Positions 52,418 to 57,851 of a DNA stretch of 64,000 bases are shown here, one piece after another; the first letter of the stretch is position 1; every line of letters begins with the position of its first letter. The position numbers were made by a program, and so were the translations under genes. The notes under the pieces are model-generated. The model was not told the origin of the DNA, made no database searches, and was given only the letters and a program-made list of their open reading frames with translations. This DNA comes from Flavihumibacter soli (lineage in GTDB: Bacteria > Bacteroidota > Bacteroidia > Sphingobacteriales > Sphingobacteriaceae): positions 434,001-498,000 of the forward strand of contig NZ_JAAFZB010000094.1 of assembly GCF_010692725.1 (NCBI RefSeq). Direction: 5' to 3'.

Positions 52418-52582
52418 ATGATTGCCCTACTCTTTCACATATGCCTTTTTACCGGATTCGGAGCATTTAAAAATATCTTAAAAAAATACTTGACAAAGAG
52501 GGCTTTCACCGTGATAACATGCTTAATTCAGCCGATATTCTTCCGATATGGCGATAGCCTGCTGCTTATTTTGGTCATATGA
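52418..52582 (+). CDS. Possible small hydrophobic protein upstream of lanB (uncertain)
   Basis: A 54-codon frame, starting MIALLFHICLFTGFGA and ending DSLLLILVI, is preceded by an AGGAG-like Shine-Dalgarno sequence (GAGGAG, 7 bases before the ATG), and its stop overlaps the lanB start as ATGA. It has two Cys and few Ser/Thr, so it is a poor lanthipeptide precursor. It could be a leader peptide that couples lanB translation, a membrane peptide, or not a gene. Confidence 0.35.
   Translation: MIALLFHICLFTGFGAFKNILKKYLTKRAFTVITCLIQPIFFRYGDSLLLILVI
52490..52518 (+). promoter_or_regulatory. Sigma70-like promoter candidate before lanB
   Basis: TTGACA (52490-52495), a 17-base spacer and GATAAC (52513-52518) match the general bacterial -35/-10 pattern better than the Bacteroidota one. 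It falls inside the 54-codon frame, about 60 bases before the lanB ATG. A direct repeat CCGATAT (52532-52538 and 52543-52549) lies just downstream. This may be chance, or a sign that the segment was acquired. Confidence 0.3.
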
Positions 52583-55467
52583 AATCATATGAATTTTTCG
52601 GTCAATTACTTCTTAGAGTTCCTCGTTTTCCAAAAGAGTTAATAGATATGGATCTGCAGGAACTAGTAAACAACCCAGTATTCCAGGATGCGCTTTACCT
52701 GGCCAGCAATTCTGTTTATGAAGAATTGAAAAAACGCAGTTTCGAACTGGATGGATGCGATGAAAGAGTTAGGCAGACTTTAAAGAAGTACCAGCACCGG
52801 ATATGTTACCGGTCGACGCCTTTTGGAGGTTTTGCATCAGTATCTGCTGTAAATTGGGGCAACGACGAAAGAGGCCTGAATATTCGGAATTGCAGTTTTG
52901 ATATTCAGACTTTGGATCCTCACGAGCCTGAAATTAACGACTCTCTCGAAGAGTATTTTCAAGTAAACCCCGCCTTGTATGCCTACGGCAGCACTTATAG
53001 GTTATATGAGGGTTCTGGAAAAAACGAGCAGGGTGCACGCTTGTTTAAAATAACTGAACTTAATGTGGAGGGGATTCCAACGGACATTCTTTCCGAAAAA
53101 GGCTGGTTTAAAAAGGTCGATTTGCTTAATCGGTTATCTATGTACGGCCTCGAATTACGGGAAGTTGGGGGCTTTATAGACGAACTTTTGGAGAATCAGG
53201 TGCTTCTTAAAGTGAGAAAACCCGCGCTGCCCCGGTTGAGGCCCCTATTATATCGGGGATCAAGCAGTGGAATAGGTGCAAATTTGTATGCGCATACGTC
53301 AAACAAAACGTGTGGATCGTTGAATGTCGATATCCAAGCTCAGATCCGCGAGGGAATAAAGGCGCTCAAGCATCTGTGCGTTTTAGAGCATGATACCAAT
53401 CTTGAAGAATTCAAACGTCGCTTCATTTCGCTTTTCGACAGGCGGGAAGTCCCGCTTCTACTGGCTCTTGACCCTGAAGCGGGGATTGATTACGGATCAA
53501 ATGCATCTTGGACAACTAATCAGAAAACAAAAACCTATAGACATTCAAAAGGTTTGCAGTGGACCCGGACCCATGAAGTGTTGCTTGGGAAATGGACTCT
53601 TTACAGAGGCTCCGGACTTCCGATAATCCGGCTGACTGATGAGGACCTTAAGTTACTAGAACCAACAGCAATTCAACACCGGGCACCAAGTATGATGGCA
53701 CTTTTTAACATTATCCCTGGTGGTATCCATTTACATTCAGCTGGTGGTGTCAGCGGTATAAATATACTCGGCCGTTTCACCATATTTGATAATGAACTAC
53801 AGCAAATGGCCAAGAAGATAGGAGAACTGGAGCAGGCCGCGAATCCCGATGTGATATTTGCGGAGGTAATTCATGAAAGCGACGAATTAGCAGATAAATT
53901 GAATACCAGACATGACCTTCGAGAAATGGTCATACCAGTTTTAACAGATAGCGGAAAGGAAGAGGAATATCGCTTAGAGTTGAATGATCTTTATCTGTCG
54001 GCATCAAATGGCACACTGGTACTGCGATCAGCCAGATTGAATAAACGGGTGATTCCCAGATTGAGTACTGCATATAATCATCGTAGAGAGACTCTTTCTA
54101 TATATCGATTTCTTTGCGATCTGCAGAACGAAGGAGTACAGCCTTGTTTAAACTTCAGCATGTCTTCTCTCTACCCCGGATTGCCTTTTTATCCTTCCGT
54201 TTACTATAACAACATTCTTCTGGATCCGGCGAAATGGCAGATAGAAGGCAATACTTTTAAGAAAATGAGCAAATTGGACAAACAGAAAAGGTCGGATGCT
54301 TTTAGAAAACTCGCACGGGAATTACAGCTTCCTGAACTATTTGTTTATGAACAACATGACCAGCGCCTACTAGTACGTAGGGAGTTCTGGGAAGATATTG
54401 AAATGTTAATTGAAACAGTCAAGAACCAAAAGCATGTCTTTTTGCGAGAATATCACGACGATAAGAGCGGACTCGTTCGAGATGAAGAGAATAGACTTTT
54501 CGCTCATGAACTTGTGGCGATAATGCTCAACGGCGAAAGTATTTACAGTGGCCTTAACGATCGGGATCTCGTTGAGAAAGTGAATGCTGTCTGCTTTTTA
54601 AAGGATTGGATTTATTTAAAAGCTTATATGCACCCCTGCGGTATGGAGAGCTTTCTGATCCATTACTTCAGTCCGTTTATAAAAGATGTCTCAAAGAGAA
54701 TACCGACTATCCAATGGTTCTTCATCCGTTACTATGATAGGGATGACCACCTGCGTATCAGGATAAAATGCAGTAAAGGAAAAGAATTACTTTTATTAAA
54801 AGAATTGCAAGACTTCCTAGTTCGTATTCAAGCGCTTCCCAATCTCCGATCTCTTGAATTGGCAAGCTATGAGAAAGAACTTGAAAGATACGCTCCCATA
54901 GGGATTTTAACTGCCGAAACGCTTTTTTGCCTCAGTACCGGACTAGTGCTGAAAACAATAAGTGACTTCGAGGAGGAGAACTCCCCTCTTGATGCTGAAC
55001 CTGCAAGTATTAAGTGGGACGGGGATGATTTATCATTAACAAATGAGTCAGGGTTTCCACGCTTGATTGCAGGCGTTTTACATTTAAATGCAGCTTTTGA
55101 GGCCGCAGGTTTTAAGCCTGATGAAGTGATAAATTTCTGCAAGAATAGCGTCAACCACCTTTTTAAAGACCTTAATATCAATAAAGATCTAAGGATTATT
55201 TATGACCAAGATTACAGAATTATGTCTGGAGCTATGACTAGACTTTTCAGTAAAAAGTTTAGGATGAAACCTCAAGACCAGTATTTTGGTGTCTTATCGG
55301 CAAAACTTCGCAATCTGAATCAGTATAATAAATATAAGGTGCTTATAGATATGAATCATTTACACCTTAATCGACTGTTTCCCCATGAACCGAATCATCA
55401 AGAAGCGCGGTGTTACTATTACCTGTATAAGCAGTTGATCCGGCAGCTTAAAACCGCGCAGGGTTAA
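52579..55467 (+). CDS. LanB-type lanthipeptide dehydratase (glutamylation and elimination domains)
   Basis: 962 residues, the length of a complete class I dehydratase. The N-terminal region (about 1-640) has the lantibiotic-dehydratase features SFELDGCDERVRQTLKKYQHR, YRSTPFGGFASVS and HRAPSMMALFNIIPGGIHLH, which glutamylate Ser/Thr using glutamyl-tRNA. The C-terminal region (about 690-955) is the SpaB-C/thiopeptide-type elimination domain with WFFIRYYDRDDHLRIRIKC. The product should be dehydroalanine/dehydrobutyrine in a precursor peptide. No LanC cyclase, protease or exporter is in the window. Its 3' end overlaps the convergent LytTR gene by 20 bases. By eye it is AT-richer than its surroundings. 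Confidence 0.9.
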   Translation: MKSYEFFGQLLLRVPRFPKELIDMDLQELVNNPVFQDALYLASNSVYEELKKRSFELDGCDERVRQTLKKYQHRICYRSTPFGGFASVSAVNWGNDERGLNIRNCSFDIQTLDPHEPEINDSLEEYFQVNPALYAYGSTYRLYEGSGKNEQGARLFKITELNVEGIPTDILSEKGWFKKVDLLNRLSMYGLELREVGGFIDELLENQVLLKVRKPALPRLRPLLYRGSSSGIGANLYAHTSNKTCGSLNVDIQAQIREGIKALKHLCVLEHDTNLEEFKRRFISLFDRREVPLLLALDPEAGIDYGSNASWTTNQKTKTYRHSKGLQWTRTHEVLLGKWTLYRGSGLPIIRLTDEDLKLLEPTAIQHRAPSMMALFNIIPGGIHLHSAGGVSGINILGRFTIFDNELQQMAKKIGELEQAANPDVIFAEVIHESDELADKLNTRHDLREMVIPVLTDSGKEEEYRLELNDLYLSASNGTLVLRSARLNKRVIPRLSTAYNHRRETLSIYRFLCDLQNEGVQPCLNFSMSSLYPGLPFYPSVYYNNILLDPAKWQIEGNTFKKMSKLDKQKRSDAFRKLARELQLPELFVYEQHDQRLLVRREFWEDIEMLIETVKNQKHVFLREYHDDKSGLVRDEENRLFAHELVAIMLNGESIYSGLNDRDLVEKVNAVCFLKDWIYLKAYMHPCGMESFLIHYFSPFIKDVSKRIPTIQWFFIRYYDRDDHLRIRIKCSKGKELLLLKELQDFLVRIQALPNLRSLELASYEKELERYAPIGILTAETLFCLSTGLVLKTISDFEEENSPLDAEPASIKWDGDDLSLTNESGFPRLIAGVLHLNAAFEAAGFKPDEVINFCKNSVNHLFKDLNINKDLRIIYDQDYRIMSGAMTRLFSKKFRMKPQDQYFGVLSAKLRNLNQYNKYKVLIDMNHLHLNRLFPHEPNHQEARCYYYLYKQLIRQLKTAQG

Positions 55468-56191
55468 TGCGGTCGGAAATGACCATCTTGGTGTTCAGAA
55501 CCTCAATCAGCCTGTTTCGAAACACGCCACCGAGAACAAGCTGCTTTTGGTCTTCCATAACAATTTGGTTACCTTCTATGGATTGAAGCCTATCAATGTT
55601 GATCATAAAGCACTTGTGAACCCGAATAAAATTCTCTTTATCCAGCTTAAACTCGAGTTCTTTCAGTGTAAGATAGGTGACAAACTTACCCTTGATGGTA
55701 TGAACCTTCACAAAGTTCTCCATCGATTCTATATACAGCACGTCGTAAAAGTAAATCTTGATCAACTGCCCTTTCCTACCACCCTTAATAAAAAAATACT
55801 CATCCGGAACCCGGTTGGCCCCCTTTTGATTAACCTGTATCCTATTTTTAATCTTGACGATTGCCTGCATGAACCGGGCATACGAAATTGGCTTTGGTAA
55901 AAAGTCGTAAGCATCTTTTTCAAACGCTTCAGCCCCATATTCAGGGTATGCTGAAATGAAGATAATAGATGTGTAATGATTGATGATTCCGGCAAGTTCC
56001 AGTCCATTTATGGCTGGCATGTCGATATCCAGAAAGGTGATATCCGGTTTCACCGGTCCTGAAATAATATCAATAATATCATGCGGCCTTGTACTCGACC
56101 CGAGCAGCCTAAGATTTTTTGTTTGGTTAATATAGTCGCTTATGATTTCAATAGAAGGGACTTCGTCGTCAACGATATAGCAGTGTAACAT
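55448..56191 (-). CDS. LytTR-family response regulator
   Basis: 247 residues: receiver with YIVDDEVPSIEII, phospho-Asp in FLDIDMPAINGLEL and Lys in LPKPISYARF, then a LytTR DNA-binding domain (YFFIKGGRKGQLIKIYFYDVLY, FVKVHTIKGKFVTYL, FIRVHKCFMINIDRL). It follows its kinase by 6 bases. The pair sits between lanB and the peptide gene, so it probably controls them. The final residues overlap the 3' end of lanB on the other strand. Confidence 0.93.
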   Translation of the reverse strand: MLHCYIVDDEVPSIEIISDYINQTKNLRLLGSSTRPHDIIDIISGPVKPDITFLDIDMPAINGLELAGIINHYTSIIFISAYPEYGAEAFEKDAYDFLPKPISYARFMQAIVKIKNRIQVNQKGANRVPDEYFFIKGGRKGQLIKIYFYDVLYIESMENFVKVHTIKGKFVTYLTLKELEFKLDKENFIRVHKCFMINIDRLQSIEGNQIVMEDQKQLVLGGVFRNRLIEVLNTKMVISDRINPARF

Positions 56192-56197
56192 AAGTGC

Positions 56198-57283
56198 TTA
56201 ATTCAAGTGAATATTTAAGAAAGATTTGTATGTCATCCCATCATTCTCAATAATATAATTGAAGGAGTCGGGGTAAGCGTACTTCAGGCGTTTCTTCAGG
56301 TTAGCTACCCCCATACGATGACCTGAGGAGGCGCCCTGCCGAACCATATTTTCTGTGTGTATTCTTAAGCATCCGCTGCGGTAGCTGATGTTAATATAAG
56401 CCGGCCTATCAGGATTTTCTAAGTTTCCATGCTGGAGAATATTTTCTGTCATGGTCACGAGGATCAATGGTATAACCCGTAATGGCAGATCATCCATTAT
56501 CCCTTCTTTAGAGAGTGAAATATAGGAAGGGATCCGCTTTTTATGTAGATTGATATAATGTTCAATGTAGTTTATTTCATCATTCAATTTGACCTTTTCT
56601 TCGTTACTGTTATCAGACAGGGAATAACGCATTAATTCCGATAAAGACATGATATGTTCTGCCACGGGACGATCTACTTTTCTTACCTCATTGTAAAGAA
56701 AGTTTAATGTATTGAACAGCATATGCGGATTAATCGTCGATTTAACCAAGGCGAGCTTCAGTTTTTCTTTCTCCATTGAAGAAATTAAGAGCGCACTCCT
56801 CATACGGTTGATCCGCATTTCTTTTCTCTTCAGATGCAGAACGCACCAATATGCGGTACTTCCGCAAAGAATGTAAATACACCGGTAAATGTTGCCGATA
56901 ATGAAATTGTTCTGAAAGTTCCATTTCTGTTCGATTAGCTCGATATCCAGATAGATGCCAATCAGGGCACCGCAGATAAAAAACAGTATAATCTCCGAAG
57001 TCAGTTTGAGGAGCAAGTTCAGCCACCTTCTTTCCTTTCTGACTTTAGTAACATTTAATACGTAATAGCTATGATAATAAAACGTAGCGATGTACAACGC
57101 ATAATGTAAGACATAGTCGAGAATATGCCCAAATTTTTTCGAAATGGCAGCCGCCAAGGAAATCTCATAAGAGATAAACAGGATCCAGGCCATAATATGA
57201 AAAAAGATGGATGGAACTCTAACTAGAAGCCGCCTGAAACCAATATCGTTGGAAAGGCCTAAAATATCACGTGAAAGCAGCAC
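56198..57283 (-). CDS. LytS-type sensor histidine kinase
   Basis: 361 residues with four hydrophobic segments in the first 150 residues, the His_kinase region STINPHMLFNTLNFLYNEV (phosphoacceptor His) and an ATPase part with TMTENILQHGN and HRMGVANLKKRL. The N-box glutamate-asparagine is kept. The start is GTG at 57283; the in-frame stop upstream leaves no ATG. It is divergent from the peptide gene at 57347 with 63 bases between them, a shared control region. Confidence 0.9.
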   Translation of the reverse strand: MLLSRDILGLSNDIGFRRLLVRVPSIFFHIMAWILFISYEISLAAAISKKFGHILDYVLHYALYIATFYYHSYYVLNVTKVRKERRWLNLLLKLTSEIILFFICGALIGIYLDIELIEQKWNFQNNFIIGNIYRCIYILCGSTAYWCVLHLKRKEMRINRMRSALLISSMEKEKLKLALVKSTINPHMLFNTLNFLYNEVRKVDRPVAEHIMSLSELMRYSLSDNSNEEKVKLNDEINYIEHYINLHKKRIPSYISLSKEGIMDDLPLRVIPLILVTMTENILQHGNLENPDRPAYINISYRSGCLRIHTENMVRQGASSGHRMGVANLKKRLKYAYPDSFNYIIENDGMTYKSFLNIHLN

Positions 57284-57346
57284 TTGATGTAATAAAATAG
57301 CTAGGAAATATTGTCATACTTATATTGAAACAAATAAAAAAAAATT

Positions 57347-57484
57347 ATGGAACAAAAGAAATCCCTAAAATTAAAAATCAGCAAGTCCAACCGGTTTGTC
57401 TATGTAAAGCATCGGCCATTGTCAACCACATTGTCCGATCCAACAATTGTCATTACAACGACGTTAACGGCGTTTGGAAATTGA
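57347..57484 (+). CDS. Candidate RiPP precursor: basic-leader, Thr/Ser-rich, cysteine-free 45-residue peptide
   Basis: The frame reads MEQKKSLKLKISKSNR at the start, then RPLSTTLSDPTIVITTTL and a tail TAFGN before the TGA. The first half is strongly basic and the second half has three Ser and seven Thr in about 20 residues but no Cys. It is followed 5 bases later by a strong terminator, so it forms a single-gene transcript, and lies divergent from the LytS kinase next to lanB. A basic leader with a Ser/Thr-rich core suits a LanB substrate. A GG cleavage site is not seen. I do not recognise a known family, so this is inference from composition and context. Confidence 0.55.
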   Translation: MEQKKSLKLKISKSNRFVYVKHRPLSTTLSDPTIVITTTLTAFGN

Positions 57485-57489
57485 TCATT

Positions 57490-57516
57490 AAGCTCCCCAA
57501 AAGGGAGCTTTTTTTT
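57490..57516 (+). terminator. Intrinsic terminator of the peptide gene
   Basis: AAGCTCCC, a CAAAA loop and GGGAGCTT pair perfectly over eight bases and run into eight T. It begins 5 bases after the peptide stop codon. This is one of the cleanest terminators in the window and supports a dedicated short transcript from the 57284-57346 region. Confidence 0.92.
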
Positions 57517-57851
57517 CTACATATAAGTTTTTATCATATTCATTTTACGACTTTGGAATACTAACTGGCGCATCGTTGAGTTTTACAGGAAGCTCAACAG
57601 AGCCTACAAACACCTGTGGCGGTCACAAGGCTCGACAACCAAGAAGTTAAACGTTTTAGTTCCAAAAAACGGAGAACTCCTGAAGAACTCATCTCCTGCA
57701 CTAAAGAGAAATATTTTAGCCAACCGGATATCTGGCTAATGAGAAGAAATTAGTGATTAAATGCAATTTCTTCGACCTCCACGGCGGCAAGAAATTACTA
57801 TTCCTTTCTTTACCAAATTCTAGTCAATCCTGTAGTGATACACAATCGTGC
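57517..57851. other. Gene-free region after the peptide terminator
   Basis: 335 bases without a supported gene. Several short frames can be read (one Ser/Thr-rich with LTGASLSFTGSSTEP, others Lys-rich) but none has a credible start or family match. It may hold decayed DNA. The pirin gene converges from the other side. Confidence 0.5.

Follow-up and report, generated by a model that had tools for sequence, protein, structure and literature searches.

We analyzed a gene cassette in the window, the 64,000-nucleotide stretch at positions 434,001 to 498,000 of contig NZ_JAAFZB010000094.1 (Flavihumibacter soli, assembly GCF_010692725.1). It comprises a LanB-type dehydratase gene, a two-component system and, divergent from the latter, a small open reading frame (ORF) encoding a 45-residue peptide devoid of cysteine. 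Its features are the following:

52579-55467, + strand: LanB-type dehydratase, 962 residues (Lant_dehydr_N PF04738, E=1.7e-71; Lant_dehydr_C PF14028, E=3e-38)
55448-56191, - strand: LytTR response regulator (Response_reg PF00072 and LytTR PF04397)
56198-57283, - strand: LytS-type membrane sensor histidine kinase with a GTG start (His_kinase PF06580)
57264-57295, + strand: putative LytTR operator, ATATCACGTGAAAGCAGCACTTGATGTAATAA, scoring 22.1 bits against the family motif
57347-57484, + strand: precursor peptide gene, 45 residues, MEQKKSLKLKISKSNRFVYVKHRPLSTTLSDPTIVITTTLTAFGN, with homologues at the same place in relatives
57490-57518, + strand: intrinsic terminator, an 8-bp stem followed by a T run (free energy -12.8 kcal/mol, z=-4.3)

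The LanB and regulator genes are convergent and overlap by 20 bp, the left part of the operator overlaps the kinase start codons, and the terminator lies directly 3' of the precursor ORF. A first-pass annotation of these letters had described a complete LanB with glutamylation and elimination domains, a LytS/LytTR pair convergent with it, and an ORF with a basic leader, a Thr- and Ser-rich core without Cys and a terminator of its own; it had also noted that no LanC, exporter or protease gene lies near. All of this stands, and its interpretation in terms of a dehydrated peptide is supported as largely right. What is new is the operator shared by the family upstream of the ORF, the private class to which the kinase belongs, and the breadth of the family. 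Our main finding is that the peptide gene, LanB and a private LytS/LytTR pair form one conserved cassette, which is found again in dozens of its relatives from soil and water.

The window peptide has a basic leader covering approximately residues 1-24, with an NRFVYVK motif, and a Cys-free, Thr-rich core, LSTTLSDPTIVITTTLTAFGN; the boundary, at about residue 24, is a predicted one. Nine of the last 21 residues are Ser or Thr. Homologues of the ORF next to LanB genes, which the first-pass annotation had proposed to look for in related genomes, do exist, and far beyond the genus. Relatives of 47-48 residues, all directly divergent from the homologous kinase gene, are encoded by a Daejeonella metagenome-assembled genome (G014), by D. 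lutea DSM 22385 (G001) and by Daejeonella sp. JGW-45 (G013; the host is G000). The order LanB-regulator-kinase-peptide in JGW-45 is exactly that of the window, and a second genus (G071 and G104) has an identical layout; in D. lutea, LanB is two genes past the regulator, and in G014 the peptide-kinase-regulator block is on contig C21 and LanB on contig C13. The core common to these relatives reads [DS][PS]T[VI][VI]I[TS]TT[VL]T, G104 alone having the variant ILTT. The position of the precursor gene, 1.9 kb from LanB and facing away from it, had been considered unusual; it is instead the standard layout of the family.

To assess this family globally, we searched 400 Sphingobacteriaceae genomes, 217 of which have LanB relatives. 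Eighty LanB neighborhoods were fetched by LanB rank alone, and are thus those most similar to the window LanB. The kinase and regulator genes are both within 4 kb of LanB in 77 of the 80, and in 70 a peptide with a Lys-rich leader and a Thr-rich sequence is divergent from the kinase gene, usually 60-150 bp away. The leader/core rule used here was set after examples had been seen, and background ORFs serve as its control: 93 of 125 divergent ORFs beside kinase genes passed (74%), compared to 524 of 5381 background ORFs (9.7%). Under a strict form of the rule (Lys-rich leader, aromatic motif, DPT-like motif and no Cys in the last 28 residues), the figures become 64/125 (51%) and 10/5381 (0.19%).

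In the peptides of the family, Lys makes up 25% of the 20 residues at the start of the leader, and an aromatic motif (TLFVYK, VYGFKK or RFVYVK, for instance) is present in most leaders. In the last 28 residues, Thr reaches 22.9% (background 5.5%) and Cys falls to 0.6% (background 3.3%); 77 of the 88 unique peptides have no Cys there at all. Selection is visible at the codon level: between the JGW-45 and G014 peptide genes there are 13 synonymous and 11 nonsynonymous changes, a nonsynonymous fraction of 0.46 for a neutral expectation of 0.82 (2.5% bound 0.67), and over eight close pairs elsewhere in the family, pooled differences at codon positions 1, 2 and 3 number 48, 34 and 109, as in coding sequence, which shows that the family is coding. 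A chance ORF is ruled out by the homologues at the same place, the strict pass rate and this codon-level selection. Nor is this a known curated precursor family, as 39 of its peptides gave no match in NCBIfam and no credible match in Pfam. Judged by homology, composition and codon changes, the 45-residue ORF is a genuine precursor gene, and the family to which it belongs is uncurated. Two variations were seen within the family. At six loci (L086, L095, L096, L149, L165 and L167), 3-7 almost identical precursors follow one another in tandem at intervals of about 150-160 bp, and a second cassette of D. lutea (L133:6203-6343) has a peptide core, CSGGTVDPTTITNTVSLGC, with two Cys.

The two-component system is likewise part of the cassette unit. 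A search for the kinase spanned twelve genomes, including eight LanB-positive relatives and three Daejeonella devoid of LanB. In all eight LanB-positive relatives (Daejeonella/g19), the cassette kinase is the best histidine kinase match, at 156-236 bits. Other kinases start at 111 bits, except one on contig C41 of G037 at 148.8 bits, and this kinase (L218) is part of a second cassette, which has a peptide of its own and what remains of a LanB. In the three LanB-less genomes (G002, G005 and G009) no match exceeds 93 bits, and the class is absent. On these scores, the window kinase belongs to a private class linked to LanB and the peptide. Moreover, the LanB, kinase and regulator distance matrices correlate (r = 0.84-0.92), a part of which reflects shared species history.

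Upstream of the precursors lies a 32-bp element, with the consensus TTATCT.G..AAA...GG.GTTCGTGTAA.AA, which was found in 56 of 73 non-redundant upstream regions and mostly begins 81-91 bp before the precursor ATG (about 83 bp in the window). Its total score is 1297 bits, compared to at most 536 bits for mononucleotide shuffles in which expectation maximization was restarted from the true motif. Repetition of the half-site is strongest at a spacing of exactly 21 bp (z=2.7), TTTGGTGTAA-N11-TTTCGTGTAA being among the clear examples; this agrees with what is expected of LytTR regulators binding to direct repeats, such as AgrA, which binds two of them upstream of its promoters (PMC4227749). Scanning 3.7 Mb of strand gave 57 matches upstream of precursors; of the 20 others, several proved to precede precursors that the filter had missed. 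The Daejeonella form of the operator core is present once in the 4.44-Mb host genome, at 57266-57294 of the window, with no mismatch. In JGW-45, another perfect copy separates LanB from a leftward MauE/DUF6520-like operon, and G014 has operator copies beside both its kinase-regulator-peptide block and its unlinked LanB, the latter a weaker copy (3 mismatches) at the matching place. This weak copy counts by its position and not by its score, because three-mismatch matches occur in LanB-less genomes at chance-like rates. Operator copies beside unlinked parts thus connect LanB with the kinase and the peptide even when the genes are separated. The window combines a tandem-repeat element upstream of a peptide gene with a LytTR regulator, as in LytTR-regulated signaling, and we consider it likely that the cassette regulator binds the putative operator at 57264-57295.

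Copies and relatives of the element were also noted as follows. At L010 (position 5243) and L021 (position 9912), a copy separates LanB from a leftward MauE/DUF6520-like operon that adjoins SusC/SusD; MauE is present in 11 loci. Daejeonella genomes with and without LanB share a conserved related element, (G/A)TCACGGAACAAATTAGTTTGGTGTAAAA (G001:C8:390097, G005:C15:2501, G009:C18:286347, G013:C1:415599 and G014:C58:48719), which probably marks another LytTR regulon.

The LanB enzyme itself appears intact. MadB (9g05, E=3.3e-41) and NisB (4wd9, E=9.8e-34) are the best structural matches of its AlphaFold model (pLDDT 80.9), TbtB/TbtD and GodF being further ones, and MadB (9G04/9G05; PMC12241602) is its closest solved relative by phmmer (E=7e-34). 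Residues listed as essential in MadB include R89, R93, T95, R483, R822, R864 and H1005 (PMC12241602). The first six correspond to R74, R78, T80, R399, R728 and R770 of the window LanB; H1005 lies outside the alignment, and the C-terminal His motif of the window enzyme is H927. R13, R74, R78, T80, R399, R728, R770 and H927 are conserved across the LanB family, the elimination residues R728, R770 and H927 being invariant or nearly so, and NisB Asp121 (MadB Asp128) probably corresponds to D113. The enzyme therefore looks competent for both glutamylation and elimination, on a mapping that covers the listed residues except MadB Asp308. In a midpoint-rooted tree, LanBs linked to two-component systems do not form one clade but several groups, and the LanC-linked, split and kinase-linked LanBs of other families form one group (support 1.0) among these. 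In a few cassettes, kinase, regulator and peptide are intact but the LanB gene is in pieces or only partly preserved (L080:5123-7940, L097:2142-5174 and L218:8190-8651). Split LanB genes with LytS/LytTR genes also exist in other families (L211 and L219:5702-11002), accompanied at L219 by a small Ser-rich, Cys-free ORF.

The components that would complete a lanthipeptide pathway are missing. LANC_like was found in none of seven Daejeonella genomes, host included, and is likewise absent from 31 of another 45 genomes with LanB; all of 105 loci lack LanC, and the host genome has no Peptidase_C39. No YcaO or other azole-forming enzyme and no cycloaddition partner is among the recurrent neighbor families, no genome-wide YcaO search having been made. 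Full-length LanBs in other families of the phylum mostly adjoin LanC and Cys-bearing LSLNK...GG precursors, and mostly have no two-component pair. As a class I lanthipeptide system, the cassette thus has an intact, full-length LanB, and lacks LanC, core Cys and a dedicated exporter or protease. Because LanC and core Cys were looked for and are absent, we do not file it as such: its product is not a lanthipeptide by definition, and the system works like the first half of one. The first-pass annotation had proposed a linear dehydrated peptide, or else rings formed by unusual chemistry or with a Cys donor elsewhere. Nothing was found in support of rings with such a donor, and the missing LanC and the 77 Cys-free cores favor a linear product. 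A different arrangement was seen outside the family at L200:6420-6760, where GTTGGTGTA, repeated at 21-22 bp, precedes a Cys-free peptide, MKTTATTAKFSFKKTTVTVFNKQVSGLKRYTDDDTTTTIINTQQTWIDTTSGF, and a LanC-like gene comes after it.

The account of the cassette that we prefer is the following. The leader-binding domain of LanB would bind the basic leader through the aromatic motif FVYVK; the enzyme would glutamylate Thr and Ser of the core with Glu-tRNA and then eliminate glutamate, yielding a linear, dehydrobutyrine-rich peptide with the use of neither cyclase nor Cys. The LytS/LytTR pair would control the precursor promoter through the tandem-repeat operator, and the mature peptide, or a fragment of it, would be what the kinase senses, making it a self-regulated signal, which we regard as its most likely role; export may take an unlinked general route. 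As a whole, this reading of a Cys-free peptide modification and regulation cassette with a self-sensed product seems to us somewhat on the probable side, its parts differing in strength. That LanB dehydrates the window peptide is likely. That the peptide is the ligand of the cassette kinase we consider evenly balanced; it is favored because peptide and kinase genes are constant neighbors, recurrent genes for immunity or export are lacking, and the host has no C39 peptidases. Several observations weigh on the other side. The neighbors in about 100 loci include no recurrent gene for an exporter, a leader protease or immunity, and the signal reading is at its weakest in how the peptide would be exported and lose its leader; the kinase might respond to something else, the peptide being only an output; 11 of the 88 peptides carry one or two Cys in their last 28 residues; and three sister Daejeonella LanBs have a Lys opposite D113, in a poorly aligned stretch.

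The same dehydrated linear peptide might instead be a secreted toxin or antimicrobial, the two-component system being merely a regulator that answers another cue. Nisin-type clusters do carry LanR/LanK pairs (PMC3091789), and the tandem arrays of near-identical precursors would suit the high dosage of a toxin, but about 100 loci show no recurring immunity or exporter gene, and the host lacks Peptidase_C39; we consider this role unlikely.

LanB could also modify the peptide otherwise, by adding glutamate without eliminating it or by cross-linking dehydrobutyrine to a residue other than Cys, such as His or Lys. The Lys opposite NisB Asp121 in sister species points in this direction, as does an enrichment of Ser/Thr-His in family cores ([ST]H 42% compared to 8.6%; TH[ILFVM] 23% compared to 1%), where His is possibly a non-Cys reaction partner or part of a recognition motif. 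However, R728, R770 and H927 are kept throughout the family, and the window core has neither His nor Lys, which makes such chemistry decidedly improbable here.

A further alternative is that LanB acts on an unlinked peptide, and that the ORF is fortuitous or a small regulatory one. The 1.9 kb between ORF and LanB, on opposite sides of the regulator-kinase pair, and the separate location of LanB in G014 would agree with it. Yet the peptide recurs in 70 of 80 LanB loci with its composition and codon-level selection, LanB, kinase and regulator are co-inherited, and an operator copy stands beside the unlinked G014 LanB, so that this explanation is very improbable. Finally, a conventional class I lanthipeptide, for which LanC and a Cys donor would be supplied in trans, has hardly any probability: the predicted NisB/MadB fold of LanB would suit it, but it is contradicted by the absence of LANC_like (from G000, G001, G013, G014 and the 31 genomes above) and by the Cys-free precursors, and the real LanC-linked LanBs of the phylum come with Cys-bearing ones, mostly without a two-component system.

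The Cys-free modification and regulation cassette shares features with several known systems. Like class I lanthipeptide clusters (NisB/MadB-type, pinensin and the Bacteroidota LSLNK...GG type), it has a full-length LanB, a separate leader and core, and an aromatic leader motif; unlike them, it has no LanC, core Cys, GG leader or PCAT/LanT/LanP, and it includes a LytS/LytTR pair. Dehydration by a LanB-like enzyme without LanC is also found in thiopeptide and goadsporin pathways (TbtB/TbtD, GodF), but the window cassette has one fused LanB and no recurring azole-forming or cycloaddition partner. A two-component system next to a peptide gene with a conserved operator upstream recalls nisin NisRK and agr/com quorum sensing, AgrA likewise binding two direct repeats, and the half-site spacing in the family being 21 bp; differences are the LytS-type kinase (PF06580), the Cys-free LanB peptide, the Gram-negative host and a ligand that is predicted. 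With PEARLs, the LanB-like amino-acyl ligases, LanB has a glutamylation-type domain in common, but it is not one of them, since the elimination domain PF14028 is present and R728, R770 and H927 are kept.

The open literature yielded no account of such a cassette, subscription papers being outside our scope. Two published surveys (Walker 2020, PMC7268733; PMC11251773) were anchored on LanC or a cyclase domain, an approach that misses cassettes of this type, and the former set aside LanM-linked precursors without Cys. LanB enzymes are read as lanthipeptide enzymes, and a large set of them in Bacteroidota appears to serve Cys-free peptides tied to private two-component systems. For annotators, this points to a very small, unannotated ORF as the likely LanB substrate. 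If the product is indeed a dehydrated linear signal, its chemistry would be new among pheromones, and it offers a means of testing peptide signaling in Bacteroidota directly.

Some cassettes seem to ride on conjugative elements. We tentatively entertain the possibility that in Sphingobacteriaceae the cassette is a widespread pheromone system, with a linear dehydrobutyrine-rich peptide produced by a stand-alone LanB and sensed by a private LytS/LytTR pair. In some lineages the precursor is the first gene of an operon adjoining genes of conjugative elements (RteC, TraG), and the system may control the transfer of these elements. A protein of about 390 residues, of no known family and not supported as a relative of RteC (hhalign probability 19%), is encoded 0-120 bp 3' of the precursor and on the same strand in about 25 LanB loci (L128:12693-13946, L100, L105, L107, L109 and L110, for example), and the conjugation genes RteC and TraG often follow it.

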